From Thermoleophilaceae bacterium (GTDB lineage: Bacteria > Actinomycetota > Thermoleophilia > Solirubrobacterales > Thermoleophilaceae): a DNA stretch of 46,802 nt. The stretch lies in assembly GCA_030447905.1 (NCBI GenBank), contig JAUJNZ010000012.1, positions 1 through 46,802 of the forward strand, in the 5' to 3' direction. Made by a program: the position numbers and the translations under genes. Under the pieces are notes generated by a model that was given only the letters and a program-made list of their open reading frames with translations, had not been told where the DNA came from and did no database searches. Of this stretch, positions 34,157-46,460 are shown one piece after another (position 1 is the first letter of the stretch; each line of letters begins with the position of its first letter).

Positions 34157-34558
34157 TCAGCGCGCTTCGGGCTCGCGGTCGCGCTCGGGGTCGAGCGCCA
34201 CGAACTCCTCGTAGCGGCCCAGGAAGGCGTCCATCAGCCGGCGCGTGCGCGCGAGCGCGAAGACGCGGCGGTGGAGGTCCTCCATCCCGGGGCGGGTGAG
34301 CTGGTAGATGCGCCGGTCGGGTCCTGTGTCCGATCGCTCCCAGGCCGAGTGCACGAGGCCGTCTCGCTCGAGCGCGCGCAGGGCGCGGTAGAGGCGGCCG
34401 GGGTCTGAGGCCCGAAAGCCGAAGGCCTCCATCCGCTCGAGCAGGTCGTAGCCGTGGGCGGGCTGCTCGCGCAAGAGCAAAAGCAGGCACGGGCGCAGGA
34501 AGTCCTTGGGCGGGGCCGGCTCGGCGCAGACCTCGGCCAGGGCGGCGTCAGTGGACAT
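34157..34558 (-). CDS. PadR-family transcriptional regulator
   Basis: 133 aa, ATG at 34558, overlapping the end of the preceding Cys-rich gene by 11 bp. The winged helix has the PadR pattern: FLRPCLLLLLREQPAHGYDL, then SDPGRLYRALRALERDGLV and RRIYQLTRPG. A C-terminal helix follows (RRLMDAFLGRYEEF). PadR proteins usually repress nearby genes in response to small molecules. Location in the maturation run suggests control of the hydrogenase locus (inference). Confidence 0.9.
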   Translation of the reverse strand: MSTDAALAEVCAEPAPPKDFLRPCLLLLLREQPAHGYDLLERMEAFGFRASDPGRLYRALRALERDGLVHSAWERSDTGPDRRIYQLTRPGMEDLHRRVFALARTRRLMDAFLGRYEEFVALDPERDREPEAR

Positions 34559-34907
34559 GGCCGACCCGGTCCTCGAGGCAGCGCGCGGCCTCCTCGGGCG
34601 AGGAGTGACACCAGCAGTCCTCGGCGCACTCGCCGTGGGCGGCGCCGGTCAGGCCGGCGAACTCGTCGGCAAACGTGCGCTTTCCGAGCTCTGCCCCGAG
34701 GTCTGTGAGCGAGTAGCCGGTCGCCTCGGAGTCGAGGTAGCCCTCGGCTAAGAAGCGCTCGAGGAAGGCCCCGAGGGTGTCTGGGGGCACGGCCAAAAAG
34801 CGCGCGAGCACCTCGGCGGAGGGCGCGTCGTCGAGGCCCTCTGCGCGCATCCAGTACATCGCCTGCAGGACCTCGTCGCGGACCCGCAGGGCCTCGAGCT
34901 CGCCCAC
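34548..34907 (-). CDS. Winged-helix-like protein with C-terminal Cys/His cluster
   Basis: 119 aa from GTG 34907, 4 bp after the CooC-like stop. Residues about 10-75 look like a winged helix (LRVRDEVLQAMYWMRAEG, SAEVLARFLAVPPDTLGAFL, EGYLDSEATGYSLTDLGAEL). The tail carries HGECAEDCWCHSSPEEAARC: His91, Cys94, Cys98, Cys100, His101 and Cys110, a likely metal or Fe-S site. I do not know a named family. Placement between a nickel-ATPase-like gene and PadR suggests a metal- or redox-sensing regulator or a nickel-handling factor. Confidence 0.6.
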   Translation of the reverse strand: MGELEALRVRDEVLQAMYWMRAEGLDDAPSAEVLARFLAVPPDTLGAFLERFLAEGYLDSEATGYSLTDLGAELGKRTFADEFAGLTGAAHGECAEDCWCHSSPEEAARCLEDRVGHVH

Positions 34908-34911
34908 CTCT

Positions 34912-35728
34912 CTAGCCTCGGGCGGGGGCGGTCTGGGCCCCGTTTGGGTGGGCGCCGGCGGCGCCGTCTTCGCCGTCGGGGCTCGCCAGCGCTGCGGCGA
35001 TCGCGGCGATCGCTGTGACCGCCGGCGCCTCGGGGCAGAAGTCAAGCGGGGAGGCCTGGGCGCGCTCGGCGTTCGGCATGCCCTCGTCGAAGGGGACCAC
35101 GCCGGCGATCTCGAGGCCGTTTCTGTCGCAGAACTCCCCCACCGCGGCGAGCCTTGGTCGTCGCGGATCTTGTTGGCCACGAGCGCCACCCGCTCGAGGC
35201 CGAGGTCTTCGCCCAGGGCGGCCATCCGCCGGCCGGTCTCAAGCGACTTGTAGTAGGGCTCGACGACGCAGAGCATCGCGTCGGCATAGCGGGCGGTCCC
35301 CCGCGACAGGTGCTCGGGGAGGCCTCGGTGTCGAGGATGCAGACCTCTCGCGGCGCGTTGGCCGCGGCCTCGATCACGCTACGGACCGTAGCGTGCATCG
35401 AGCACAGTCACCCCTTGCCGGCGTGCTGGGGGTGGGCCATCACGAGCAGCGTCACGCCGTCGGGCCCGGTGACCGAGTGGCTCTCGCACACCTCGTCGAG
35501 GGTCTTTGCGAGCTCTGCGCCCTCGTCGGTGCGCCGCAGCAGGTCGCGCGACAGCGTGGGCATCTCGCCCATGCGCTCGGCGGGGATGCCGAGCGTGAGC
35601 GCGAGGTTTGGGTTCGAGTCGCCGTCGATGGCGAGGACCCCGTGGCCCGTGCGGGCCAGCACGCGGGCCATCGTCCCCGAGATCGACGTCTTGCCCGAGC
35701 CGCCCTTGCCGGCGATCGCAAGCTTCAT
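34912..35728 (-). CDS. CooC-like nickel-insertion ATPase; candidate selenoprotein with in-frame UGA, two frameshifts
   Basis: From ATG 35728 the frame reads MKLAIAGKGGSGKTSISGTM (deviant Walker A, residues 7-14) and AIDGDSNPNLALTLGIP, typical of the CooC/MinD family. Codon 107 is TGA (35410-35408), followed by L-C-SMHATVRSVIEAA. CooC proteins bind nickel at the dimer interface through a CxC at this place (GCxC), so the UGA sits where the first Cys is expected, giving U-L-C. A SECIS-like hairpin starts 5 nt after the UGA. Further on, homology continues after two one-base losses: near 35320 (DTEAS then EHLSRGTARYADAMLCVVEP) and near 35155 (VANKIRDD then AAVGEFCDRNGLEIAGVVPF), ending at 34912. 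With both repaired it is about 270 aa, normal for the family. It is either a selenoprotein with two assembly errors or a pseudogene. It lies 10 bp after the maturation protease. Confidence 0.65.
35369..35402 (-). promoter_or_regulatory. Candidate bacterial SECIS element
   Basis: Beginning 5 nt after the UGA, the RNA can fold as CUCGAU-(G bulge)-CACGCUACG-GUC-CGUAGCGUG-AUCGAG: 15 base pairs, one bulge and a 3-nt loop whose first base is G. UGA to apical loop is 21 nt. Known bSECIS elements have a short apical loop with an early G and lie 16-37 nt from UGA, so geometry and loop agree. The coding sequence alone does not require such a perfect stem. Confidence 0.6.
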
Positions 35729-35738
35729 ACCTGCGATC

Positions 35739-36248
35739 TTAGCGCTCGCCTCGCCCCGGCGCCGAGCCCTGCGCCCGCCACTCCTCGACGACCTTGAGGA
35801 CCTGCTCGGCGGCCGCCTCGAGCGCGCCCTCGACCGCGGCCGACAATCCCGCGCCAAAGCCCTCGGCGTCTGTGGGCTGGCAGCCCACGAGGGCCACGCG
35901 GGCGGGCAGGCAGCCGAGCCCCTTGGCCATCGAGAGGACGCGCTCGGGGGTGGCCAGGTGCATGTCGGGCACGAGGTCGTAGTCTGAGACTTCGGGCTCG
36001 ATGACAAACACCGTGCCCGCCGGCGCCCCGCGGTCGACGGCGTCGACGACGATCAGGCCGTCACAGCCGGCCAGTAGCTCCTGCAGCAGCGCGATCCCCC
36101 CGATGCCCGACTCGACGACCTCGACGCCGACCGGCAGGGCCGTAAGGCGGTCGGCGACCGCGGGCCCAAAGCCGTCGTCGCCGCGCAGGACGTTTCCGAC
36201 ACAGCCGACGACGATCCGCAGCGGAGGTCTGTGGGGGCGGGTGGGCAA
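35739..36248 (-). CDS. Hydrogenase maturation protease (peptidase M52, HyaD/HycI type)
   Basis: 169 aa from TTG 36248; a TTG at 36341 would add 31 low-complexity residues, so the start is uncertain. This family trims the C-terminus of the [NiFe]-hydrogenase large subunit after nickel insertion. Its signatures are present: VVGCVGNVLRGDDGFGPAVA with the first metal-binding acidic residue, LIVVDAVDRGAPAG with the second Asp, and DMHLATPERVL with the His. A matching large subunit with a cleavable tail is encoded at 41652. It is the first gene of the minus-strand maturation run and divergent from the lipoprotein gene. Confidence 0.9.
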   Translation of the reverse strand: MPTRPHRPPLRIVVGCVGNVLRGDDGFGPAVADRLTALPVGVEVVESGIGGIALLQELLAGCDGLIVVDAVDRGAPAGTVFVIEPEVSDYDLVPDMHLATPERVLSMAKGLGCLPARVALVGCQPTDAEGFGAGLSAAVEGALEAAAEQVLKVVEEWRAQGSAPGRGER

Positions 36249-36378
36249 GCGCTTAGGCTTCGGTCTGGGCGAGCGCGTGGGGGGCGCCCCGGGGGCTCCT
36301 CTCAGGGCCCCGGGCGACCGCAGCGCGGGTCGGGGTGGCAAAACGTCGCCAGATGTAGGAAGATGTCAGGTCGAAGAG

Positions 36379-36955: not shown

Positions 36956-37204
36956 ATGATCCTGTGGTGGATCTTCGACATCGTGATCTTGGTGGTGATC
37001 GTCCCGGTGGTCGTCCTGTTGCTCACGCGCATGCTCCAGCCGGCCCTCGACGTAAAGCGGGGCGCCGACGAGCTCGCCGCAAGCGGCGACTCGCTGGTCG
37101 CCCACCTCGGCGGGGTCGATCAGCTGCAGAGGACGCGCGAGCTCGTGCGCGAGGTCGCCGTCGAGCTCGAGGGCTACGGCCAGGCCCTCGACGGGCTGCG
37201 CTAG
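36956..37204 (+). CDS. Small membrane coiled-coil protein, family B copy 1
   Basis: 82 aa, ATG at 36956. One N-terminal membrane helix (MILWWIFDIVILVVIVPVVV) is followed by a cytoplasmic helical tail: RMLQPALDVKRGADELAASG, GGVDQLQRTRELVREVAVEL. The tail aligns with the protein at 45593 (RVLRPVLEIRRYSLDILDAG, DGVDELERTRELTATVPRLV), so they are paralogues on either side of the hydrogenase. No catalytic motif. Likely a membrane-anchored scaffold or docking subunit. Confidence 0.75.
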   Translation: MILWWIFDIVILVVIVPVVVLLLTRMLQPALDVKRGADELAASGDSLVAHLGGVDQLQRTRELVREVAVELEGYGQALDGLR

Positions 37205-37213
37205 GTCGCTTTT

Positions 37214-37456
37214 ATGTCTGCGGTCGCCGTCGTCAGCATCGTCTTGGCGGTGGTGGTGATCCTCGTGCTCGCCGCCTACCTGATCGCGCTCGCCGTGATC
37301 CTCCAGCGCGTCCACGTGCGCCTGCGGGCGGTGATCTCGGCGATCGGCCAGGTCGGGCCCCGGTCAGAGGCGCTGGGCCCCGCCATCGAGACCTTGAGCC
37401 TCGAGCTCGACCAGCTGCGCCGCTCGCTGCAGCGGTTTACCCAAACCCGAAGCTAG
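37214..37456 (+). CDS. Small membrane coiled-coil protein, family D copy 1
   Basis: 80 aa, ATG at 37214, 9 bp after B1. One membrane helix (VVSIVLAVVVILVLAAYLIA) is followed by a helical tail containing AVISAIGQVGPRSEALGPAI and LELDQLRRSLQ. The pattern VxIVLxxVxxLLVVVLAxYL then E-x-LGP-x-x-E/TxNxxL is shared with the proteins at 38872 and 46158. Function unknown; see the paralogue finding. Confidence 0.75.
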   Translation: MSAVAVVSIVLAVVVILVLAAYLIALAVILQRVHVRLRAVISAIGQVGPRSEALGPAIETLSLELDQLRRSLQRFTQTRS

Positions 37457-37478
37457 CCGGCTCAAGGGACGGGCGGCC

Positions 37479-38174
37479 TTGGGCCTGCCAAGCGGCCGAG
37501 GAGATCGAGACCACCAAAGCGCCGGCGGGCTCTTTCCCTTCGCCCTGAGACAGAGGCCCCGGTGGCTCGCCGCCGCCGCCGTGGGCGCCGCGGCGGGCGC
37601 GGTCGCCCGGGGCGCAGTCTGTGGCCAGAGCACGGGCGACCGCGTCGGCTCTGAGCTCAGGCCGCCGCTGGCCTCGCCGCCGCCGCCGGCCCCCGCCCGA
37701 CCGCCCGCCGTCGCTGCGGGCTTTAGGCGCTTTTGGGCGCCGCAGGGGCGCTTTTCGATCGACTACCCAAGCGACTGGGCGCGGCTAGAGACCCCGCGCT
37801 CTGACGTAAAGCTGCTCGTCACCCGAGGCGAGGCCGCCTCGGTGCTCGTGCGCACGATCGCGCTTCGGTATCCGGTCGGGCGCTCAGACCTCGAGAACGT
37901 CGAGGCCCTCACCGACCGGATCGTCGCCTCCGGGCAGCAGGTGAGGCTCTTGGCCGAGGCGCGGCGGATCGAGCTCGGCGGCCTGCCCGGCTACTTCTAC
38001 TTCTACTCCTTCCGCGATCCAAAGACGCGCCGGCGCGGGACCCACTCCCACTACTTTCTGTTCCAGGGCTCAACGTTGATCACGATCGTCCTCCAGGCCC
38101 TGCCCGAGCGGCGCTTTGAGCGCTTTGCCCCAGACTTCGACCGGATCGCCGCGAGCTTTCGCGCCCGGCGGTGA
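37479..38174 (+). CDS. PsbP-like (Mog1/PsbP fold) exported protein
   Basis: 231 aa from TTG 37479; the start is uncertain. A hydrophobic Ala-rich segment (WLAAAAVGAAAGAVARGAV) and a Pro-rich linker precede a domain of about 140 residues. That domain begins GRFSIDYPSDWARLE and continues VKLLVTRGEAASVLVRTIAL, ELGGLPGYFYFYSF and HYFLFQGSTLITIVLQALPE, a PsbP-type pattern. In oxygenic phototrophs PsbP binds photosystem II; in other bacteria the role is unknown. It interrupts the left set of small membrane proteins, suggesting it works with them outside the membrane. Confidence 0.65.
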   Translation: MGLPSGRGDRDHQSAGGLFPFALRQRPRWLAAAAVGAAAGAVARGAVCGQSTGDRVGSELRPPLASPPPPAPARPPAVAAGFRRFWAPQGRFSIDYPSDWARLETPRSDVKLLVTRGEAASVLVRTIALRYPVGRSDLENVEALTDRIVASGQQVRLLAEARRIELGGLPGYFYFYSFRDPKTRRRGTHSHYFLFQGSTLITIVLQALPERRFERFAPDFDRIAASFRARR

Positions 38175-38297
38175 TCTGGTGGCTTGCCCAAGGCCGCGGC
38201 CGTAGTAAGATCCGGCCAGGACGCAAAACGCCGCGATCGCGTCGACGGGCCCCGGGGCCTCGAGATACGCCGGGGCTTTGCGGATCGCCGAGGAGGA

Positions 38298-38606
38298 GTG
38301 ACTGACTTGTCGTTGTTGACGATCGAGACGCTAGCCGCGCACACCGCCCAGAACCCCTATACGGGCTGGTGGGCGGGCCTCGTCATCGGCTTTGCCGTCG
38401 TCGTCGTGGTCGTGATCGTGGTCGCGCTGATCCTCACCTATGCCTCGCGCATCAGCGACCAGACCGAGGACGCGCTCGAGGCCTTCGACGCCGCCAGAGC
38501 GGGGACGAGCCCGCTGGCGCGCCTCGAGGACACAAGGAGCGCCGCCCAGGAGGTCCTCAACGCGATGCGCTCGGCCCGAGCAGCGCTTCCGGGGGCGAGA
38601 TCGTGA
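38298..38606 (+). CDS. Small membrane coiled-coil protein, family A copy 1
   Basis: 102 aa from GTG 38298; a TTG at 38307 has better spacing from AGGAGGAG. A membrane helix (GLVIGFAVVVVVVIVVALIL) is followed by a tail with ISDQTEDALEAFDAARAGTS and LARLEDTRSAAQEVLNAMRS. It aligns with the protein at 45348 (IVGQAKDITRSLDSARERTS, MFELSRTNLAVDRAARGLAR). Stop and next start overlap (GTGA). Confidence 0.75.
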   Translation: MTDLSLLTIETLAAHTAQNPYTGWWAGLVIGFAVVVVVVIVVALILTYASRISDQTEDALEAFDAARAGTSPLARLEDTRSAAQEVLNAMRSARAALPGARS

Positions 38607-38875
38607 CGGCGGTGACGATGCTCGACCCCGGCCAGGCCACCTTCTGGTGGATCGCGCTCGCGGTCGGGGCCGTCGTGGTCGGGGTGGTGGTCGTCTTGTT
38701 AGCCCTGCTCTCGCGCCTGCTAAACGACATCCGCTTCGGCGTGGCGGCCCTCGACGCGATGGCCGAGCGCATCGAGCACGGCTCAGCCGCCGGCGACCTG
38801 CGGGCCACCGCCTCGGTCCTGCGCGACATCCGCGACGAGATCCGCGTCCACGACGATCTGCTCTCCTCCCGATGA
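38603..38875 (+). CDS. Small membrane coiled-coil protein, family C copy 1
   Basis: 90 aa, GTG at 38603 overlapping the family A stop by 4 bp. A membrane helix (TFWWIALAVGAVVVGVVVVL) is followed by a helical tail (LNDIRFGVAALDAMAERIEH, ASVLRDIRDEIRVHDDLL). It is the counterpart of the protein at 45865, which starts its helix with TLWWITLGVGLVVALVVTAL. A and C are adjacent in both sets or separated only by B. Confidence 0.75.
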   Translation: MTAVTMLDPGQATFWWIALAVGAVVVGVVVVLLALLSRLLNDIRFGVAALDAMAERIEHGSAAGDLRATASVLRDIRDEIRVHDDLLSSR

Positions 38876-39135
38876 GCGCGGTCGTCCACATCGTCCTGAC
38901 GGTCGTCGAGATCCTCTTGCTGGTCGTCGTGCTCGCCGTGTACCTGGTCATCCTCGCCCGCCAGCTGCGGGCGATCGCCGACAGCATCGGGCAGCTGAGC
39001 GTGCGGGTCCAGACCACCGAGGAGCGCCTGCGCGACCTCGGTCCGGCGGCGGCGGAGGTAAACACCGCGCTCTCAGACCTGCGCTCGGGGCTCGCGCCGG
39101 TGGCCGAGAAGGCAACCCGGGCGGCCCGGGTATGA
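38872..39135 (+). CDS. Small membrane coiled-coil protein, family D copy 2
   Basis: 87 aa, ATG at 38872 overlapping the family C stop by 4 bp (ATGA). A membrane helix (VHIVLTVVEILLLVVVLAVY) is followed by a heptad-like tail (LSVRVQTTEERLRDLGPAAA, EVNTALSDLRSGLAPVAEKA). It is closest in pattern to the family D protein at 46158 (TVLIVLTLVEVTLLVVVLAG, GPRLREVNQVLEQV). Confidence 0.75.
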   Translation: MSAVVHIVLTVVEILLLVVVLAVYLVILARQLRAIADSIGQLSVRVQTTEERLRDLGPAAAEVNTALSDLRSGLAPVAEKATRAARV

Positions 39136-39163
39136 CGCGGGGCGCCTCGGTCAGGGTCAGGCG

Positions 39164-39595
39164 ATGAGCAGTCCGCTGCGCCATCCCGCCCAGTTCGCCG
39201 CCCTGGCGGTGGGGATCGTCTACTTGGCCGTGGGCCTGATCGGCTTTGCCGTCACGGGCTTTTCCGGGTGGGTGGTGGACACCCGCGAGGACATGCTCTC
39301 CTTCGACCTAAACGGCTTTCACAACATCGTCCACCTCGGGGTCGGGGCGATCCTGATCGGCGTCTCGCTCGTGCGCGAGCCCACCATCACCCAGGGGGTC
39401 CTGATCGGCGGCGGCCTCGTCTACCTGCTCGCCGCCGTGCTCGGCTTTACCGGCAACCTCGGCTCGCTTTTGTCGATCGACGGCAAGCTGGCCTCAGACA
39501 ACTTCCTCCACCTGGTGTCGGGCGCTGCGGCCGTCCTGGTCGGGCTGCTCGGCGGCGACCTGGGGGATCGCCAGGTCGAGGTCGTCCCGCCCTAG
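39164..39595 (+). CDS. DUF4383-family membrane protein
   Basis: 143 aa, ATG at 39164. Four membrane segments: FAALAVGIVYLAVGLIGFAV, NIVHLGVGAILIGVSL, GVLIGGGLVYLLAAVLGF and FLHLVSGAAAVLVGLLGG. The FDLNGFHNIVHLGVG motif is typical of DUF4383, a common actinobacterial family of unknown function. It follows the left small-protein set on the same strand. Confidence 0.8.
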   Translation: MSSPLRHPAQFAALAVGIVYLAVGLIGFAVTGFSGWVVDTREDMLSFDLNGFHNIVHLGVGAILIGVSLVREPTITQGVLIGGGLVYLLAAVLGFTGNLGSLLSIDGKLASDNFLHLVSGAAAVLVGLLGGDLGDRQVEVVPP

Positions 39596-39617
39596 GGGCG
39601 ACCCGGCGGCTTTTTTG

Positions 39618-40142
39618 GTGAGCGAAGTGGGCTTCGACGACCTGCTGAGACGGCTCGAGGCGCTCCTGGGCGAGGTCGAGGAGCTCGACGAGGCGACCAG
39701 AGCGCGGGTGTTCGAGCTCATGGACGGCTTTGACCTCATCCACCGGACCGCCCTCGGCGCCCTCGGCGAGGCCCTCGACCCCCAGACCCTCGAGCGCCTG
39801 CGCGGCTCAGACCCCGCCATCGCCTGGATGTTCGACGCCTACCGGGTCGGAGTCGACGAGCGGTCTGAGGCCGACGCCGCGCTCGAGTCGGTGCGCCCCT
39901 ACATCCACTCCCACGGCGGGAAGGTGGAGGTGCTCGAGGTCCGCGGCGGCGTCGTGCGCCTGCGCCTGTCGGGGGCGTGCTCGGGTTGCACCGCATCGGC
40001 GGTGACCCTCCAGGACGGGATCGACGAGGCGCTGCGAGAGCACCTGCCCGGCTTTGTGGCCACCGAGGTCGAAGAGGACGACGCCGAGCCCCACCCTCCT
40101 CCGAGCTCGGTCATCCTCGAGCTTCCACAGTTTCGCGGGTAA
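39618..40142 (+). CDS. NifU-like Fe-S scaffold domain protein
   Basis: 174 aa, GTG at 39618. The C-terminal half is a NifU-type domain: ALESVRPYIHSHGGKVEVLE, then LSGACSGCTASAVTL with Cys121 and Cys124, the CxxC that holds a transient cluster. The N-terminal about 75 residues are helical and acidic. It probably supplies or repairs Fe-S clusters for the hydrogenase small subunit, which needs three. It is the last gene of the left plus-strand set. A TTG at 39615 gives one extra residue. Confidence 0.85.
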   Translation: MSEVGFDDLLRRLEALLGEVEELDEATRARVFELMDGFDLIHRTALGALGEALDPQTLERLRGSDPAIAWMFDAYRVGVDERSEADAALESVRPYIHSHGGKVEVLEVRGGVVRLRLSGACSGCTASAVTLQDGIDEALREHLPGFVATEVEEDDAEPHPPPSSVILELPQFRG

Positions 40143-40237
40143 GTGGCGGACGCCGACAACCCGGCTGGGGTTTCCCCTTCCTGATCCTCCTCGCCCCGAG
40201 CGAGCCGAGCGACCGAAGCCCCCCGCCCCCTAGCCCG

Positions 40238-40771
40238 TCAAGTCCGCCCTGCGTGCTCGAGCTCGCACTCGATCAGCCCGAGCGTGGCCTGGGCCTGGCC
40301 GTAGGTGAGCTCTGAGAGCTCGAACGACTGCGGCGCGGGGTCTGGGTCGGGGACCGTCTCGAGGCGCTCGGCGTCTGGGAGCTCCTCTCGGGCCAGCTTC
40401 ATCAGGGCCTCGAACATGTCGTTGACCCGCTTGGGGAGGTCCCCGCTGGATCCCTCGAGCGAGCGCCGCAGCCGGTGGACGCGCTCGTGCAGGGAGGCGT
40501 CCTCGCAGGCGGCCTCGACCTGGGCGAGCTCGGCCCGCGCGCTGTCGCCGCGCACGTCTGAGAACGAGGGATCGAGCGCCGGGGAGTGAGGGTGGGCGGA
40601 GGGCATCTCGCTCGCCGGTCCGATGGCCGCCAGCACGCGGTCCTCAGAGCGTTCCTGCCTGGCCCGCTCGATCAGGTCGTTGACCCGCCCGGCGGTGTCC
40701 TTTCGCAGGTAGCCCTCGACCCCGTCGAGCTCTGAGCGCATGTCCCGGATTTCGGAAAGCAGGTCGGCCAT
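40238..40771 (-). CDS. Hypothetical helical protein of the hydrogenase operon
   Basis: 177 aa, ATG at 40771. Almost entirely acidic helix with long charged stretches (LLSEIRDMRSELDGVEGYLR, NDLIERARQERSEDRVLAAI, HERVHRLRRSLEGSS) and no membrane segment or Cys cluster. It lies last in the minus-strand run small subunit, large subunit, M52-like protein, this gene. It may be an assembly factor or a soluble partner of the coiled-coil membrane proteins. No family recognised. Confidence 0.65.
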   Translation of the reverse strand: MADLLSEIRDMRSELDGVEGYLRKDTAGRVNDLIERARQERSEDRVLAAIGPASEMPSAHPHSPALDPSFSDVRGDSARAELAQVEAACEDASLHERVHRLRRSLEGSSGDLPKRVNDMFEALMKLAREELPDAERLETVPDPDPAPQSFELSELTYGQAQATLGLIECELEHAGRT

Positions 40772-40837
40772 GGCTCGATACTACCCAGGCGAGGAGAGAT
40801 TAAGCACCGACGTCGCCGCCCCAGGGCTCGCGCGGCC

Positions 40838-41632
40838 CTAGGAGCCCGCCGCCGGCGCGGGGCCGCCGTCGGGCGAGGCCTCGGTCGCGATCCGCTCCTC
40901 GGGGGCCTGGAGGCGGTCGAGCTCTTCGATCAGGGTCCACCACAGGCCCCAGTCGAGCGCGGTCATGCCCTCGGGGGTGTGGCCGGCGGCGATCTCCTCT
41001 CGCAGGCGCTCGCGGAGGGAGAACGTCTTCTTCCAGCCGCCCTCGCGATCGACCGCCTCGAGCTCTGAGAGCAGGGCGCACAGGGCGCGCTCGGCGCCGG
41101 ACTCGCCGGCTTGGGCGCCCACGAGCTCTCGCAGCTGGTCTGAGAGCTCGAGCACGGGCACCCGGCGGACCTCCTCGCCCACGAGCTCTAAGGCGCGCTC
41201 GAGGCCCTCCTGGGCGGGCTCAGAGAGCGTCTCTGAGGGCTCTTGGCTTGCGGGCTCTACCTCGATCGCCACCGTGCGCTTGGGCAGGGCCCCAAGCCCC
41301 GCGGCCACCTCGAGCAGGAGGTCGATCGAGACATAGCCGACCACCGCCTCGCCGACGGCCACCTGGACCTCCTGGGCGGCGCGCTCTGTGGGCTCATAAC
41401 GGCGGCGCTCGACGGTCGCGGGCGCGCGCCCGCGCTCGGCCGCGCCGACCAGCACGAGCGCTTTGGGGCGCAGCTCCTCGAGGCGCTGGACCACGGCGAC
41501 GGCGCCGTAGGCGAGCTCCTCGACCAAGACGCCTGGGCCGAGGTCGGCTTCTGAGAGGCGCTGGGCGGCGATGCGCCCGAGGTCTAGGTCTCCCTGGTAG
41601 AGCTGGAAGACCCCGCCGACGAGGACCGTCAC
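40838..41632 (-). CDS. Degenerate hydrogenase-protease-like protein with extra C-terminal domain
   Basis: 264 aa, GTG at 41632, 19 bp after the large-subunit stop. The first about 150 residues follow the M52 maturation protease layout: VLVGGVFQLYQGDLDLGRIA in place of GxGNxLxxDDGxG, KALVLVGAAERGRAPATVER in place of the VDAxxxGxxPG strand, and a helix ending GLGALPKRTVAIEVEP like GLGCLPARVALVGCQP of the canonical protease at 35739. The second Asp and the His metal ligands of true proteases are absent. The last about 110 residues are helical (GWKKTFSLRERLREEIAAGH, ALDWGLWWTLIEELDRL) and not part of known proteases. It is probably a non-catalytic chaperone that holds the large subunit. Confidence 0.65.
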   Translation of the reverse strand: MTVLVGGVFQLYQGDLDLGRIAAQRLSEADLGPGVLVEELAYGAVAVVQRLEELRPKALVLVGAAERGRAPATVERRRYEPTERAAQEVQVAVGEAVVGYVSIDLLLEVAAGLGALPKRTVAIEVEPASQEPSETLSEPAQEGLERALELVGEEVRRVPVLELSDQLRELVGAQAGESGAERALCALLSELEAVDREGGWKKTFSLRERLREEIAAGHTPEGMTALDWGLWWTLIEELDRLQAPEERIATEASPDGGPAPAAGS

Positions 41633-41651
41633 CGACGGGCGGGCGCTTTGG

Positions 41652-43574
41652 CTACTCGGCCCCGCAGGAGCAGGTGTTTACCTCCCGCACCACCTTGCCG
41701 TGGCCGGTGGAGACGTGGGTGGTGCACGGCATGCAGGGGTCAAAGCTGCGCAGCGCGCGCAGCATGTCGACGGAGGTGAACTCGCTCGGGTCGCGCATCT
41801 GCTCGAGGATCGGGGTGTTCATCACCGCCTGCTCGTAGGGGCCGGGCTGGCCCCAGGGGTCGCGCGGCGAGGCGTTGATCGTCGAGGGGGTGCAGATCTG
41901 GTAGTTGGTGAGCTTGCCCCCCTCGATGACCGCGTGGTGGGTGAGCCAGCCCCGCCCGGCCCCCCAAAAGCCCGCCCCGATGCCCTCGCCCTTCTGGACG
42001 TGGCGGTCGAGCTCGCTCGAGTTCAGCCGGGCGACCTTGGTCTCTCCGCGGCGCATCAGCCGGTAGGCCTCGAGCAGGTTGTTGAGCCCGACGAGCTGGG
42101 AGAACAGGTAGTGGTAGGCGCGCCCGCGGTTTCGCTCGAACGCGTTCCAGACCTCGGGGACCCGCCACTCCACCTGGGTCTCGGGGGAGCGGCCCTTGGG
42201 GATCGTCATGCGGATGCCGTCGCCGGTGGCCTCGATGAAGTCGTTGGGCGGCATCTTCTGGGCCTTGGCGGTCAAAAACAGCCGCGCGTAGGCTCCGGCC
42301 TCGACGACGTTTCGGTCCCAGCGCGGGGCCGTCGAGTAGCTGTACTTGTCCTTGAAGCTCTTTTCCTGGGGCTTTGGCAGCGTGGTCTTGTTCCAGGGGT
42401 GGTAGGGGCTCAGGGGGTTTCCGAGCGGGTCGGTCTGATAGCGCATCCCGTCGCCCGATCCGTTGCCGTCGGTCCACTCCTCGTAGTAGGAGTGCTCGAC
42501 GAACTCCTCCCAGCCGATGTTGAGGTCTGACATGCGCGTGGTCACGAGCTCTCCGTCGATCATCGCCCCGGGCGTCGACCAGCGCCGCTCGCCCCACTGG
42601 TTGAAGTTCGCATACGAGGCGTCGTAGGCGTCGGGCTGGTCCCAAAAGCCCGTGTCGACGAAGTTCATCGGCAGGCTGCCGACCTCCTTGTAGCGCTCGT
42701 CGGCCGCGTAGAAGAACTCGGGGATGTCGTTCCAGACCGCCATCATCCGCTGGGCGTAGTCGAAGATCTCGCCGAGGCGGGCGTGGTACTCGTTCAGGGT
42801 CTGGAGGGTCACCGTCGAGGTCACCCCGCCCGGGATGATCGTCTGGGGGTGGGGGTACTTGCCGTGAAAGAGCACGAACATCTCGCGCGACAGGCGGGTG
42901 AACTGGATCCCCTCCTGGTAGAGCTCGCCGGTCAGCGGGGTGAGCGCGGTCATGATGTCGGCCATCGTGCGAAAGCCGTGGCGGTGTTCCCCGGGACAGC
43001 GCCAGCGCTCGGCCAGCGGCCACAGCTCTGGGTTTGTGGCCTTGACCACGGGCTCTGAGTAGTCGGGCCCGGCGAGCAGGTAGAGGTGGAGGGGGTTGTC
43101 GTAGCCCATCTCGGCCGTCTCGCCGAGGTTGCGCACGATCGTGCCCATCGGCGGGGGCGCGAGGTCGAGCGCCATCTCGACCGCGTAGGCGGCGGCGTGG
43201 GCGTGCACGCCCCCGCAGACCCCACACGCCCGCGAGGCGATGTAGGTGGCATCGCGCGGGTCGCGCCCCATGAGGATGACCTCATAGCCGCGAAACAGCG
43301 GCGCCTGGGAGTGGGCCTGGATGTAGCGGCCCTCGCGCAGGTCGGCGGTCATGTGCATGGCCATCGCCCCGGCGATCCGGGTCACGGGGTCCATGTTGAG
43401 GTCCTTGACGTGGCCGTTTCGCTCGACCAGGCGCTCGATCTGGGCGGTGCGCTGGGCCTCGGTCATGTGGACCTCGGGGCGGGCGGTCGAGACCGAGTAG
43501 GGGTCGGGAAAGCCCCCGCGCAGCTGCGCGTTGCCGGCGGAGTCGATCTCTACGGGAAGGGTCTTAAAGCACAT
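41652..43574 (-). CDS. [NiFe]-hydrogenase large (catalytic) subunit
   Basis: 640 aa, ATG at 43574, 3 bp after the small-subunit stop. It carries the Ni-Fe(CN)2CO active site that splits H2. The N-terminal L1 motif is RACGVCGGVH (Cys117, Cys120, His124) and the C-terminal L2 motif is DPCMPCTTH (Cys614, Cys617, His620). After His620 there are 20 residues ending CSCGAE, the peptide removed by the maturation protease. NMDPVTRIAG and TPLTGELYQEGIQFTRL-type segments are typical of group 1 uptake enzymes. The close relatives I recall are the actinobacterial high-affinity enzymes (1h and related), but subgroup is inference. All cysteines of the site are normal TGC/TGT codons, not UGA. Confidence 0.95.
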   Translation of the reverse strand: MCFKTLPVEIDSAGNAQLRGGFPDPYSVSTARPEVHMTEAQRTAQIERLVERNGHVKDLNMDPVTRIAGAMAMHMTADLREGRYIQAHSQAPLFRGYEVILMGRDPRDATYIASRACGVCGGVHAHAAAYAVEMALDLAPPPMGTIVRNLGETAEMGYDNPLHLYLLAGPDYSEPVVKATNPELWPLAERWRCPGEHRHGFRTMADIMTALTPLTGELYQEGIQFTRLSREMFVLFHGKYPHPQTIIPGGVTSTVTLQTLNEYHARLGEIFDYAQRMMAVWNDIPEFFYAADERYKEVGSLPMNFVDTGFWDQPDAYDASYANFNQWGERRWSTPGAMIDGELVTTRMSDLNIGWEEFVEHSYYEEWTDGNGSGDGMRYQTDPLGNPLSPYHPWNKTTLPKPQEKSFKDKYSYSTAPRWDRNVVEAGAYARLFLTAKAQKMPPNDFIEATGDGIRMTIPKGRSPETQVEWRVPEVWNAFERNRGRAYHYLFSQLVGLNNLLEAYRLMRRGETKVARLNSSELDRHVQKGEGIGAGFWGAGRGWLTHHAVIEGGKLTNYQICTPSTINASPRDPWGQPGPYEQAVMNTPILEQMRDPSEFTSVDMLRALRSFDPCMPCTTHVSTGHGKVVREVNTCSCGAE

Positions 43575-43577
43575 GGC

Positions 43578-45014
43578 TTACCTCGGGGCCTGGCCGCCGA
43601 CTTGGCGCTCCTCGGGCGGTCTCTGTGTGCCCGAAGGGTGGGAGTCGAGGGCGGGGTTCTTTGCCTCGGTCCATTGGCTGCGACTGCCCCACACCTCGGT
43701 GTCGCCCTTTGAGGTGTCGGTGGAGCGGCGCAGCTGGTCGTAGAAGCGGTGTCCGATCTCGCGCGTCCATCCGGGCTCCTCCCGCTCTGAGGAAAAGCCC
43801 GAGGGGGTGTGGTGGTGGATGTCCCACCGCGGCTCGCGGTTTAGGTGCTCGTTTGAGTACTCGCGCATCGGCCGGATGAGCGAGCCGAGCATCCGCGAGG
43901 CCATCGTCGAGACCTTGGACCCCGGCGGGGTCTTGTGGAAGGGCGTGAACTTGTCGGGAAAGCCCGGCATCGTGCAGCCGATGCAGGCGCCGCCGGCGTT
44001 CATGCAGCCCCCGACGTGGTTGATCGCCCCGCGGGAGGTGATGTTGCAGTTGACCACCGGGCCCCAGCAGCCGACCTCGACCAGGCACTCCTTGTCGCCG
44101 AACTCGTGGGCGTAGTCGCCCTCCTCGTAGTAGGCGCCGCGCACGCAGTGGCGGTGGACGGTCTCGCCGAACAGCCAGGCCGGGCGGCCGAGCTCGTCGA
44201 ACTCGGGCAGCGGGCCAAAGCCCTGCAGGAAGTAGCAGATCGCCGCGACCGTCTCGAAGAAGTTGTCGCCGATCGGCGCACAGCCGGGGACGTTGACGAC
44301 GGGGACCCCGAACGCTGAGCGGTAGCGAGAGCCGAGGAAGTCCATCAGGCTCATGGCGCCGGTGGGGTTGCCCTCCGCCGACGGGATGCCGCCCCAGGTC
44401 GCACACGTCCCGATCGCAAGCGACGCGGCGGCGTTGGGGGCCAGGCGGGCGATCCACTCGTTGGTGGTGACCGCGCGCTCGGCGCCGCCCGGGCCCCACG
44501 GCATCTCGCCCTGGCCGGCCCACCAGCCGCCGGTCTCCATCGCCTTGATCTCGTCGGTGATCGACCCCTCGAGGATGATCACATACGGGGCGTCGAGCTC
44601 GCCCTTGATCGCCCGCTCGTGGGCCTTGAGGAAGTTGGGGCCGGCCTCGAGGTTTACGACCGGGTGGTGGAGGATGACCCGCGGCAGGCCCGGGTGGGCG
44701 CCCAGAAGCAGGGCCTCGAGCGAGGGCTTCTCGGCGCCCGAGACGGCCACCGTGCAGCCGTCGCAGCTCATGCCGGCAAACCAGAACGCGTGCACTTTCT
44801 CGATCGGCCCGATCCGCGACTCGGGGCCGGCCTTGGCGTGGGGCTCGAGCAGCGTCTCCATGTCGATGCGGGCGGGCAGGCCGAAGTCGCCGACGTGCTC
44901 GGGGTCGATGGAGTGATCGGGGACCGGCCCGAGCACGTCGAGGAGCTTCTGGGCGGGCGTCTTGGGGGCGCTTCCGTTGGCTCCGTTGCGACCTCTTGAC
45001 CCTAGAATGCCCAT
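43578..45014 (-). CDS. [NiFe]-hydrogenase small (Fe-S) subunit
   Basis: 478 aa, ATG at 45014 with GAGGGA upstream. It passes electrons from the active site through three clusters. Proximal ligands: Cys84 and Cys87 in MSCDGCTVAVSG, Cys204 in GTCATWGG and Cys245 in VPGCAPIGDNF. Distal: His287, Cys290, Cys310 and Cys316. Medial: Cys337, Cys344 and Cys347, with Cys323 nearby. The CLVEVGCWGPVVNCN and ACIGCTMPGFPDKF stretches look like actinobacterial 1h enzymes, but those have Asp in CDGD where this has Cys87. There is no Tat signal and no C-terminal membrane anchor, so the enzyme should be cytoplasmic; about 110 extra C-terminal residues are hydrophilic. It leads the structural operon. Confidence 0.95.
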   Translation of the reverse strand: MGILGSRGRNGANGSAPKTPAQKLLDVLGPVPDHSIDPEHVGDFGLPARIDMETLLEPHAKAGPESRIGPIEKVHAFWFAGMSCDGCTVAVSGAEKPSLEALLLGAHPGLPRVILHHPVVNLEAGPNFLKAHERAIKGELDAPYVIILEGSITDEIKAMETGGWWAGQGEMPWGPGGAERAVTTNEWIARLAPNAAASLAIGTCATWGGIPSAEGNPTGAMSLMDFLGSRYRSAFGVPVVNVPGCAPIGDNFFETVAAICYFLQGFGPLPEFDELGRPAWLFGETVHRHCVRGAYYEEGDYAHEFGDKECLVEVGCWGPVVNCNITSRGAINHVGGCMNAGGACIGCTMPGFPDKFTPFHKTPPGSKVSTMASRMLGSLIRPMREYSNEHLNREPRWDIHHHTPSGFSSEREEPGWTREIGHRFYDQLRRSTDTSKGDTEVWGSRSQWTEAKNPALDSHPSGTQRPPEERQVGGQAPR

Positions 45015-45138
45015 TTCGCTCCCTCGTTTCGCTGTCGCTTTGACCGCATCCGGTCGCTCTGACCCACAGCTGCTCTATGCATGGTACATATAGTCGGCAG
45101 GAGGCGGGTACAGACCGCCTAGCAAAGCTTAGGAGGAG
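45015..45138. promoter_or_regulatory. Divergent hydrogenase promoter region with GACC/GGTC repeats
   Basis: The only A/T-richer spot in the locus. It separates the structural operon (minus) from the right small-protein set (plus). Repeated half-sites occur: GACC-N6-GGTC (45042-45055) and GGTC-N5-GACC (45052-45064), followed by TATGCATGGTACATATA near 45076-45092, which could hold -10 elements for either strand. TAGGAGGAG at 45130-45138 is the ribosome binding site for the plus-strand gene. Regulator not known; PadR in the same locus is a candidate. Confidence 0.4.
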
Positions 45139-45345
45139 ATGATGGCAAAGACCTTCACGTGCCGCGATGCCGGGCTTGTGGGGTGTGGCTTTCGGGCCAG
45201 CGGGCAGACCGAGGACGAGGTGGTAACCAAGGCCGTCGCCCACGCGCGCCAGCGCCACGGGGTCGACCTCACCCAGGCAAAGACCCTCGAGCGCTACGCG
45301 CGCAGCGCGATCCGCGAGGACTCGGGCCGGCGCGGAGGCAGATAG
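45139..45345 (+). CDS. DUF1059-family small protein
   Basis: 68 aa, ATG at 45139 (or 45142), strong ribosome site TAGGAGGAG. It begins AKTFTCRDAGLVGCGFRASG and continues TEDEVVTKAVAHARQRHGVD. The paired Cys/His (Cys near 8, Cys near 16, His near 35, His near 40) pattern is that of DUF1059, a small possible zinc-binding fold of unknown role. It opens the right accessory operon, divergent from the hydrogenase structural genes. Confidence 0.8.
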   Translation: MMAKTFTCRDAGLVGCGFRASGQTEDEVVTKAVAHARQRHGVDLTQAKTLERYARSAIREDSGRRGGR

Positions 45346-45347
45346 CC

Positions 45348-45596
45348 GTGGCCGTCCAGATCGGGTGGATCGTCGGCTGGTCGGTCGGCGCGCTCGTCGT
45401 CGTGATCGCCGCCGTCCTGCTGCTCATGATCATCGGCCTCGGCCTGCGGATCGTCGGCCAGGCCAAGGACATAACCCGCTCGCTCGACTCCGCGCGCGAG
45501 CGCACCTCGCCGATGTTCGAGCTGTCTAGGACCAACCTGGCCGTCGACCGCGCGGCGCGCGGGCTGGCCCGCACGCGCGAGGAGCAGGAGCGATGA
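45348..45596 (+). CDS. Small membrane coiled-coil protein, family A copy 2
   Basis: 82 aa, GTG at 45348, 2 bp after the DUF1059 stop. A membrane helix (GWIVGWSVGALVVVIAAVLL LMI) is followed by a helical tail (RIVGQAKDITRSLDSARERT, LSRTNLAVDRAARGLARTRE). Paralogue of 38298. Stop overlaps the next ATG by 4 bp. Confidence 0.75.
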   Translation: MAVQIGWIVGWSVGALVVVIAAVLLLMIIGLGLRIVGQAKDITRSLDSARERTSPMFELSRTNLAVDRAARGLARTREEQER

Positions 45597-45868
45597 CCCC
45601 GCTCGCCGTCTCCACCGCCGGGGCCATCCTGTCCATCGTCGGCCTCGTGCTCGGGGTCGTCATCCTGGGGGTCGTCGTCGGCCTGTTCAACCGGGTCCTG
45701 CGCCCGGTGTTAGAGATCCGCCGCTACTCGCTCGACATCCTCGACGCCGGCCTGGCGATCACCCGCAACCTCGACGGGGTCGACGAGCTCGAGCGCACCC
45801 GCGAGCTCACCGCCACCGTGCCCCGGCTGGTCCCCGACCTCGAGCAGCTCGAAGGGAGCCCGCGATGA
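45593..45868 (+). CDS. Small membrane coiled-coil protein, family B copy 2
   Basis: 91 aa, ATG at 45593 overlapping the family A stop (ATGA). A membrane helix (ILSIVGLVLGVVILGVVVGL) is followed by a tail RVLRPVLEIRRYSLDILDAG and NLDGVDELERTRELTATVPR. The VDELERTREL segment is almost the same as VDQLQRTREL in the protein at 36956, the best evidence that the two sets share ancestry. Confidence 0.78.
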   Translation: MTPLAVSTAGAILSIVGLVLGVVILGVVVGLFNRVLRPVLEIRRYSLDILDAGLAITRNLDGVDELERTRELTATVPRLVPDLEQLEGSPR

Positions 45869-46161
45869 GCGCGACGGAAGCGATGCCGGAGATCCTCGCG
45901 ATCACCCAAAACCAGACGCTGTGGTGGATCACCCTCGGCGTCGGGCTCGTGGTGGCGCTCGTGGTCACCGCGCTGCTCGAGGCGCTGCGCCAGACCGTGG
46001 TCAAGGTCAAAGACTCAGTCGAGGTGCTGTGGACGATGGGCACCCGCCTGGCCCAGAACACCTCGACCACCTACGTGCTCGACAACACCAAGCAGCGGGG
46101 GGGCGAGCTGCTCGCAGAGCTCGAGCGCCGCCGCCCGCCGGCCGAAAGGAGCCGACCGTGA
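45865..46161 (+). CDS. Small membrane coiled-coil protein, family C copy 2
   Basis: 98 aa, ATG at 45865 overlapping the family B stop by 4 bp. A membrane helix (LWWITLGVGLVVALVVTALL) is followed by an amphipathic tail (QTVVKVKDSVEVLWTMGTRL, DNTKQRGGELLAELERRRPP). Counterpart of 38603. Stop overlaps the next GTG. Confidence 0.75.
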   Translation: MSATEAMPEILAITQNQTLWWITLGVGLVVALVVTALLEALRQTVVKVKDSVEVLWTMGTRLAQNTSTTYVLDNTKQRGGELLAELERRRPPAERSRP

Positions 46162-46460
46162 ACACCGTCCTCATCGTCCTGACCCTGGTCGAGGTCACCC
46201 TGCTGGTCGTCGTCTTGGCCGGCTACCTGATCGCGATCGCCGGGACCCTCCACCAGGTCTCTAAGACCCTCGGCCTCGTCACCTTCGGCGTGCGGGCGAT
46301 CGACAAGCAGACCGAGCCGATCGGCCCGCGCCTGCGCGAGGTAAACCAGGTGCTCGAGCAGGTCGCCGGCGCGCTCGACGTCGGGTCGCGAGCCGACGGG
46401 GGCTCCTCGCAGGCCCCGGACGCGCCGCCGGCGCGGCCCGGGCCCGAGGCGCGCTGGTAG
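46158..46460 (+). CDS. Small membrane coiled-coil protein, family D copy 3
   Basis: 100 aa, GTG at 46158 overlapping the family C stop by 4 bp (GTGA). A membrane helix (VLIVLTLVEVTLLVVVLAGY) is followed by the tail KTLGLVTFGVRAIDKQTEPI and GPRLREVNQVLEQVAGALDV, then a Pro/Ala-rich end. Its last codons TGG TAG begin the GGTA repeat, so repeat length change by slippage could alter the stop. Paralogue of 37214 and 38872. Confidence 0.75.
   Translation: MNTVLIVLTLVEVTLLVVVLAGYLIAIAGTLHQVSKTLGLVTFGVRAIDKQTEPIGPRLREVNQVLEQVAGALDVGSRADGGSSQAPDAPPARPGPEARW

Follow-up and report, generated by a model that had tools for sequence, protein, structure and literature searches.

Introduction

Soil bacteria that oxidize atmospheric H2 and CO form a major sink for the two gases, and this metabolism sustains life in deserts. 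The enzymes involved, [NiFe]-hydrogenases of the Hhy/Huc-like kind and the molybdenum-containing carbon monoxide dehydrogenase (CODH), are both cytoplasmic, have no membrane subunit and feed the quinone pool. What brings hydrogenases of the group 1h and 1l type to the membrane and into contact with the quinone pool is an acknowledged open question. In a 46,802-nucleotide stretch of DNA from a Thermoleophilaceae bacterium (contig JAUJNZ010000012.1; this whole stretch is termed the window), the genes of a [NiFe]-hydrogenase are flanked on both sides by genes for nine tiny membrane proteins. Here we report that these proteins belong to a five-gene cassette that is linked to form I CODH as well as to hydrogenase, and that probably encodes a common membrane stalk. 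Anchoring of the group 1h enzyme, which is anchorless and cytoplasmic yet membrane-associated, is an acknowledged gap, and in Methylacidiphilum its membrane association seems essential for high affinity, with no anchor known (PMC7174314). The cassette offers a small, genetically tractable gene set with which to approach this question.

Five small membrane proteins make up the cassette

All nine small genes singled out by an earlier note, which had been made from the letters of the window alone, were found on the forward strand in the places it had claimed. The left set consists of B1 (36956..37204, 82 aa, hidden Markov model E 4e-24) and D1 (37214..37456, 80 aa), separated by a 9-bp gap, and of A1 (38298..38606, 102 aa), C1 (38603..38875, 90 aa) and D2 (38872..39135, 87 aa), with 4-bp overlaps at A1/C1 and C1/D2. 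The right set, on the other side of the hydrogenase, comprises A2 (45348..45596, 82 aa), B2 (45593..45868, 91 aa), C2 (45865..46161, 98 aa) and D3 (46158..46460, 100 aa), and its A-B-C-D order with 4-bp overlaps at A2/B2, B2/C2 and C2/D3 was confirmed. A 4-bp overlap was also the commonest junction elsewhere (116 of 223 neighbouring cassette pairs).

Pairing of the proteins into families A to D was beyond chance when about 17,000 open reading frames were searched (A1 to A2, 2e-7; B1 to B2, 2e-9; C2 to C1, 4e-4; D3 to D2, 7e-9; D3 to D1, 2e-5). When the right-hand four genes were compared to their nearest relative (locus L013), third codon positions were the most variable and nonsynonymous change was lower than synonymous change (dN < dS); thus, these genes are translated. 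Each protein has a single N-terminal membrane helix and a helical tail, as the note had described, and Lys/Arg values were about 0.3-0.8 before and 2.4-2.7 after the membrane helix (54-126 homologs per family). This excess predicts that the C-terminus is cytoplasmic (N-out/C-in). The cytoplasmic helix is amphipathic, with a periodicity of 103-106 degrees that was matched by 0-1 of 2000 shuffles, and family C, modelled as C2, was predicted as one 81-residue helix spanning residues 8-88 (mean predicted local distance difference test score, pLDDT, 83.5).

By profile-profile alignment, A, B and C are paralogs (hhalign probabilities of 97.9-99.1% among themselves), and C and D are probably paralogous as well (94.9%). 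The D proteins were further resolved by slot profiles, for which one half of the D proteins from hydrogenase loci served as the only training set. These profiles classed 75 of 78 held-out hydrogenase D proteins by position and put all 36 D proteins from CODH loci in the correct slot. Thus, the D that follows B (D_B) and the D that follows C (D_C) are separate ancient paralogs, and the four families proposed at first, each of them sound as a family, amount to five distinct subunits. The ancestral set, as judged from these profiles, would have been A, C, D_C, B and D_B. In the window, D1 is of the D_B type (51.4 bits vs 35.5 for D_C), and D2 (79.7 vs 43.3 for D_B) and D3 (96.9 vs 76.1) are of the D_C type; the left set therefore holds all five slots, as B1-D1 plus A1-C1-D2, and the right set lacks D_B. 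The left set had been taken for a shuffled copy of the right. It is instead the canonical A-C-D plus B-D arrangement of most Actinobacteria, and the right-hand order is a variant of Thermoleophilia.

None of the nine proteins scored above cut-off in Pfam or NCBIfam, and families A to D had no meaningful match to any solved structure in the Protein Data Bank (PDB), in line with the view that no such set had been described. Strong PDB matches of the D profile were designed coiled coils, tropomyosin and similar proteins, and were rejected as a reflection of heptad composition, not homology.

Two variations on the small proteins were observed. At six loci from several phyla (L061, L075, L080, L082, L087 and L090), family C ends in CPxCPxC, a motif that could form a metal or Fe-S site at the cytoplasmic tip of C. 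In addition, longer relatives (about 250-410 aa) with repeated IN..A.(S/E)IN heptads and C-terminal Cys pairs are encoded near or beside a short cassette (L105 10986-13554, L106 9420-11899, L108 4091-7192 and L109 16726-19100); these are apparently of opposite topology, with the C-terminus outside.

The cassette accompanies one major type of hydrogenase

The small subunit of the window hydrogenase (478 aa, 43578..45014, reverse strand) was detected at 81 loci, i.e., 80 from a contig search plus the window. A cassette was near the hydrogenase at 75 of these loci, from eight phyla (Actinobacteriota, Chloroflexota, Thermomicrobiota, Acidobacteriota, Gemmatimonadota, Myxococcota, Verrucomicrobiota and Pseudomonadota), and four of the six loci lacking a cassette were cut by a contig end. 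Among 396 genomes of Actinomycetota, family C was present in 21 of 21 with the hydrogenase and in 16 of 375 scored as lacking it (Fisher p 3e-25, with kinship ignored). Similarly, in 131 genomes of Chloroflexota, five of the six that have family C have it at this hydrogenase. The expected co-occurrence with this type of hydrogenase was thus borne out, and the linkage is near-obligate.

Several gene orders were observed. Outside Actinobacteria, the order is often small subunit-(A)-C-D-B-D-large subunit, with the small genes between the structural genes and, in Chloroflexota, Gemmatimonadota and others, on the same strand as these. Acidobacteria mostly have C-D-B'-D ahead of the small subunit. 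In most Actinobacteria, A-C-D is divergent to the small-subunit gene, with B-D at a distance of several kb, and the A-B-C-D variant of Thermoleophilia occurs together with the canonical kind in L034 and the window and twice in L026.

This order bears on the possibility that the cassette is an assembly platform, which would recruit maturation ATPases (CooC-type, or CoxD/CoxE-like MoxR and VWA proteins) for insertion or activation of metal centres and would not belong to the working enzyme. Genes for CooC-type ATPases are found with the hydrogenase at most loci, and CoxD/CoxE-like genes are beside cassettes of both hydrogenase (L109, L111 and L112) and CODH. By contrast, the cassette outside Actinobacteria lies between structural genes, not among maturation genes, and true group 1h operons have maturation genes and no cassette. 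We consider an assembly platform improbable and favour a membrane tether, which is developed below.

The three loci with CoxD- and CoxE-like genes, which lie inside the hydrogenase operon, are also unusual in having two divergent small/large hydrogenase gene pairs in tandem that share one cassette. At another locus (L130, G303:C13), two hydrogenase gene pairs are split over many frames beside an intact A-C-D, an apparent case of decay or assembly error.

The window hydrogenase falls outside group 1h

Neither an RR motif nor a membrane-like segment is present in the hydrogenase subunits (KD19 peaks at 1.12 in the small and 1.01 in the large subunit), and no cytochrome b gene was found in the hydrogenase operon. 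The description of this enzyme as devoid of a Tat signal and membrane anchor was therefore upheld. The closest solved relative is HofK of Cupriavidus, a group 1h enzyme (5AA5, 343 bits). The large subunit (640 aa, PF00374, 41652..43574, reverse strand) is only 37-40% identical to named group 1h large subunits. When a tree was built with outgroups, the seven references of group 1h came out as a clade of their own (support 100), and the cassette-linked large subunits, with the exception of one long-branch row (L126), formed its sister clade (support 99), which includes the window enzyme. Membership of group 1h was rejected for the window enzyme on this basis. The sister clade most likely corresponds to the published group 1l (HylL), possibly together with group 1m, as placed by its position beside 1h and its taxonomic range (Actinobacteriota, Chloroflexota, Acidobacteriota and others), with 1l and 1m taken together.

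Two further features set this clade apart. The small subunit has a C-terminal extension (residues ~400-478, 43581..43817, reverse strand) with the motif VPSGW...FYD..R, conserved in the cassette clade and absent from group 1h, which is a candidate docking element. In addition, the cassette was found in none of the seven true group 1h loci examined; those that were annotated carry NifU-DUF5947-DUF6084 genes instead. The cassette can thus be used as a marker to tell the 1l-type enzyme from that of group 1h.

The cassette is also linked to form I CODH

The same five genes were found beside form I aerobic CODH at 17 loci, usually where the 1l-type hydrogenase is absent. In the class of the window, seven genomes have family C and lack the hydrogenase, and all seven have A-C-D-B-D near coxM-coxS-coxL. 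A class-wide chance occurrence of C-like proteins was rejected on this basis. The enzyme was assigned to form I, as CoxL scored 1208-1229 bits vs the TIGR02416 cut-off of 991 (three copies scanned) and the form I active-site loop AYRCSFR was present in seven CODH loci. Other actinobacterial families have the order coxMSL-coxG-B-D-A-C-D (L119-L125). Overall, 11 of the 16 family-C genomes of Actinomycetota scored as lacking the hydrogenase have the cassette within about 9 kb of CoxL; in L115, at a contig end, it adjoins coxG, which brings the number at CODH loci to 12. Another of the 16, L116, turned out to be a set of the hydrogenase that is interrupted by the end of its contig, and the last three are L117, L113 and L114, which are described below. 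In two genomes (G087 and G124), a first cassette sits at or close to the contig of the hydrogenase and a second one at CODH; the window genome has no CODH by genome scan.

Specificity of the module for hydrogenase, as first supposed, is contradicted by the 12 of 16 genomes with a cassette at a CODH locus. Wide occurrence of the families without hydrogenase had been named in the earlier note as a point that would count against tethering. Such occurrence was found only in a form that favours the idea, the second partner being a cytoplasmic trace-gas dehydrogenase as well.

In a tree of concatenated cassette proteins, the CODH cassettes formed two clades inside the actinobacterial hydrogenase cassettes. 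Partner switches on this tree required two changes, a number as low as which was reached in 0 of 500 shuffles. The cassette was apparently recruited to form I CODH twice within Actinobacteria. With weak support (81), the left set of the window is placed close to the CODH clade of Thermoleophilia. Because related sets have PsbP-like and DUF4383 genes beside them at both enzymes, the original partner of the left set is uncertain.

Linkage to two enzymes also bears on whether the small proteins are membrane or stress proteins of a generic, DUF948-like kind that accompany genes of aerobic starvation and make no contact with an enzyme. Family D has a sub-threshold likeness to DUF948 (PF06103; 16.5 and 16.6 bits vs a gathering cut-off of 37.2), no such match was seen for A, B and C in the same profile scan, and a few cassettes have no known enzyme beside them. 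Against this, a strict five-slot composition is kept between unrelated enzymes, co-occurrence is 21 of 21 genomes, and the genes lie between structural genes. Generic proteins of this kind are a very remote explanation.

A proposed membrane stalk as the common function

As the same set stands beside two unrelated enzymes, it probably acts as a shared stalk by which enzymes of this kind are attached to the membrane. We assign a probability of roughly 0.6 to the reading that a hetero-oligomeric membrane stalk tethers cytoplasmic trace-gas dehydrogenases at the quinone pool. Each of A, B, C and the two D kinds would contribute one long helix that runs through the membrane and on into the cytoplasm. 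Contacts between the hydrophobic faces of the cytoplasmic helices would bundle the subunits into a stalk made up of a module of A-C-D_C and a module of B-D_B. Docked at the cytoplasmic end of the stalk, the dehydrogenase would be held against the inner surface of the membrane, close to the quinone pool. The stalk would do what in classical uptake hydrogenases falls to the Tat signal and cytochrome b, and in Huc to HucM. The stalk may serve the group 1l-type hydrogenase in many phyla and may later have been recruited to form I CODH. We infer assembly into one stalk, docking of the enzyme, and a role in electron or quinone transfer from gene linkage and predicted structure; tethering of the anchorless window hydrogenase is likewise plausible.

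Several observations weigh against the stalk model. Two actinobacterial loci (L046 and L047) are true hydrogenase loci with no cassette, and 44 of 55 genomes with CODH have no cassette near CODH. Conversely, no trace-gas enzyme was detected in the stretch examined at L117 (a cassette at a contig end, near RuBisCO genes), L113 and L114 (A-C-D only), L127 (B-D-A-C-D, adjoining Mrp/Mbh-type antiporter genes) and L138 (A-C-D-B'-D, with glycolate-oxidase-like genes about 5 kb away); further partner enzymes are possible for L113, L114, L127 and L138. Many sets of Acidobacteria and some of Chloroflexota have no A; thus, not all subunits are essential. The structural models are of single chains, and that of the small subunit has a mean pLDDT of 60 with its C-terminal extension unresolved.

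A stronger form of the stalk model is that the helices form a hydrophobic tube that leads menaquinone out of the membrane and up to the Fe-S chain of the small subunit. The amphipathic nature of every cytoplasmic helix and the lack of cytochrome b in the hydrogenase operon are compatible with such a conduit, as is the predicted C helix, which at 1.5 A per residue would be about 120 A in all and of fitting length. HucM of the group 2a hydrogenase Huc is a tube of this type, with menaquinone moved 94 A (PMC10017518). By contrast, a relation to HucM was not found by profile search, and a conduit would be redundant at many CODH loci, where coxG adjoins and CoxG is a proposed menaquinone carrier (PMC13240472). 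We therefore regard the conduit as rather unlikely. As coxG is often present in CODH loci, the role shared by both enzymes would be that of a tether or platform, and tethering is more likely than quinone transport as the shared function; with the hydrogenase, the helices may in addition offer a path for quinone.

The stalk may also be viewed more broadly, as one ancient, hetero-pentameric coiled-coil plug that spans the membrane and serves as a general, exchangeable link between unrelated cytoplasmic trace-gas dehydrogenases ([NiFe]-hydrogenase and Mo-Cu CODH) and the respiratory quinone pool, a proposal to which we give even odds. If true, it would represent a new class of respiratory membrane subunit with no cofactor-binding cytochromes. 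One major hydrogenase type nearly always has the cassette with it, the true group 1h loci that were examined lack it, and CODH shares it; being tractable, near-constant and shared in this way, the cassette makes the question of membrane attachment directly testable.

Other genes of the locus

The two halves of the left set are separated by a gene for a PsbP-like protein (37479..38174, forward strand; PF01789, 31.7 bits, E 2e-7). Its presence had been noted correctly. It is not a chance insert, as a PsbP-like gene is beside cassettes in seven further loci (L105, L106, L108, L109, L117, L126 and L128). Downstream on the same strand are genes for a DUF4383 membrane protein (39164..39595; PF14325, 59.7 bits), which recurs near the related loci L105, L108 and L109, and a NifU-domain Fe-S protein (39615..40142; PF01106, 75.9 bits; 46 of 80 loci), an HhyE/HucE-type counterpart and candidate electron relay. 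A DUF1059 small protein (45139..45345, forward strand; PF06348, 50.7 bits; 22 of 41 actinobacterial loci) is encoded between the hydrogenase and the right set. On the reverse strand are genes for a conserved hydrogenase-operon protein of 264 aa with no assigned function (40838..41632; 60 of 80 loci), a HycI-type hydrogenase maturation protease (35739..36341; PF01750, 57.6 bits) and a CooC/MinD-type P-loop ATPase (34548..36007).

Within 34548-35728, the ATPase gene has an in-frame TGA at 35410-35408 (reverse strand), exactly at a Cys of its homologs (HAGKG-[TGA]-LCSMHATVR). At this position TGA was found in 10 copies (window, L014, L015, L016, L028, L030, L032, two copies in L108, and L110) and TGC/TGT in 29. 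Most TGA copies have a conserved hairpin about 15 nt 3' of the TGA (CACGCTACGGTNCGTAGCGTG), and SelB was above cut-off in three TGA genomes tested and not in one TGC genome. Judged by codon, hairpin and SelB pattern, this ATPase is probably a selenoprotein that has not been described before. The window copy has two frame changes 3' of the TGA (34548-35408); the L108 copy is in frame throughout. The window genome also encodes a RuBisCO large subunit (G000:C19:256092-257014) that is likewise split over two frames. Assembly indels are thus the likely cause in both genes. RuBisCO genes are also present in L117 (960-3903), several kb from the cassette and PsbP-like gene, and its presence in both is consistent with atmospheric chemosynthesis. 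The nine-gene/hydrogenase block is duplicated identically on contigs C2 (window) and C20 of the 2.58-Mb assembly, which is probably assembly redundancy, not a real duplication.

Comparison with known systems

No common membrane module for H2- and CO-scavenging enzymes was found described in the literature searched. The earlier note had likened the small proteins loosely to HucM of Mycobacterium smegmatis. The likeness holds in place: both are helical coiled-coil elements on a high-affinity, oxygen-insensitive [NiFe]-hydrogenase that lacks cytochrome b, and both associate with the membrane through helices. It does not extend to sequence or composition. HucM, which moves menaquinone in group 2a Huc, is one protein of about 188 aa that forms a peripheral homotetramer (PMC10017518), whereas the cassette encodes five paralogs of 80-100 aa, each predicted to span the membrane, and is also found with CODH. 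No HucM chain was matched by the A, B and C profiles in PDB, and none was among the best 60 of 185 coiled-coil matches of the D profile.

The group 1h enzymes (Hhy; HofGK of Cupriavidus necator) are the nearest structural relatives (5AA5), and are similarly cytoplasmic with a NifU-type Fe-S partner gene. They differ in forming a separate clade, in having DUF5947/DUF6084 genes in place of A to D, and in a small subunit that ends before the C-terminal extension. Hydrogenases of groups 1l (HylSL) and 1m, from desert and Antarctic soils, lie near 1h and share phyla and habitats with the cassette clade (PMC8528921, PMC9561532); small membrane proteins were not found described for them in the literature searched.

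DUF948 proteins (PF06103) resemble the cassette proteins in having one N-terminal membrane helix and a coiled coil. D is weakly similar to them at a score far under the cut-off, and A, B and C are not. CoxG, the proposed menaquinone carrier (PMC13240472), likewise links CODH to the membrane and quinone pool, and its gene adjoins the cassette at many CODH loci. By contrast to the cassette proteins, CoxG has a lipid-binding fold (PF06240), not a single-span helix, and coxG was not seen at the hydrogenase loci scanned for it, where the cassette proteins do occur.

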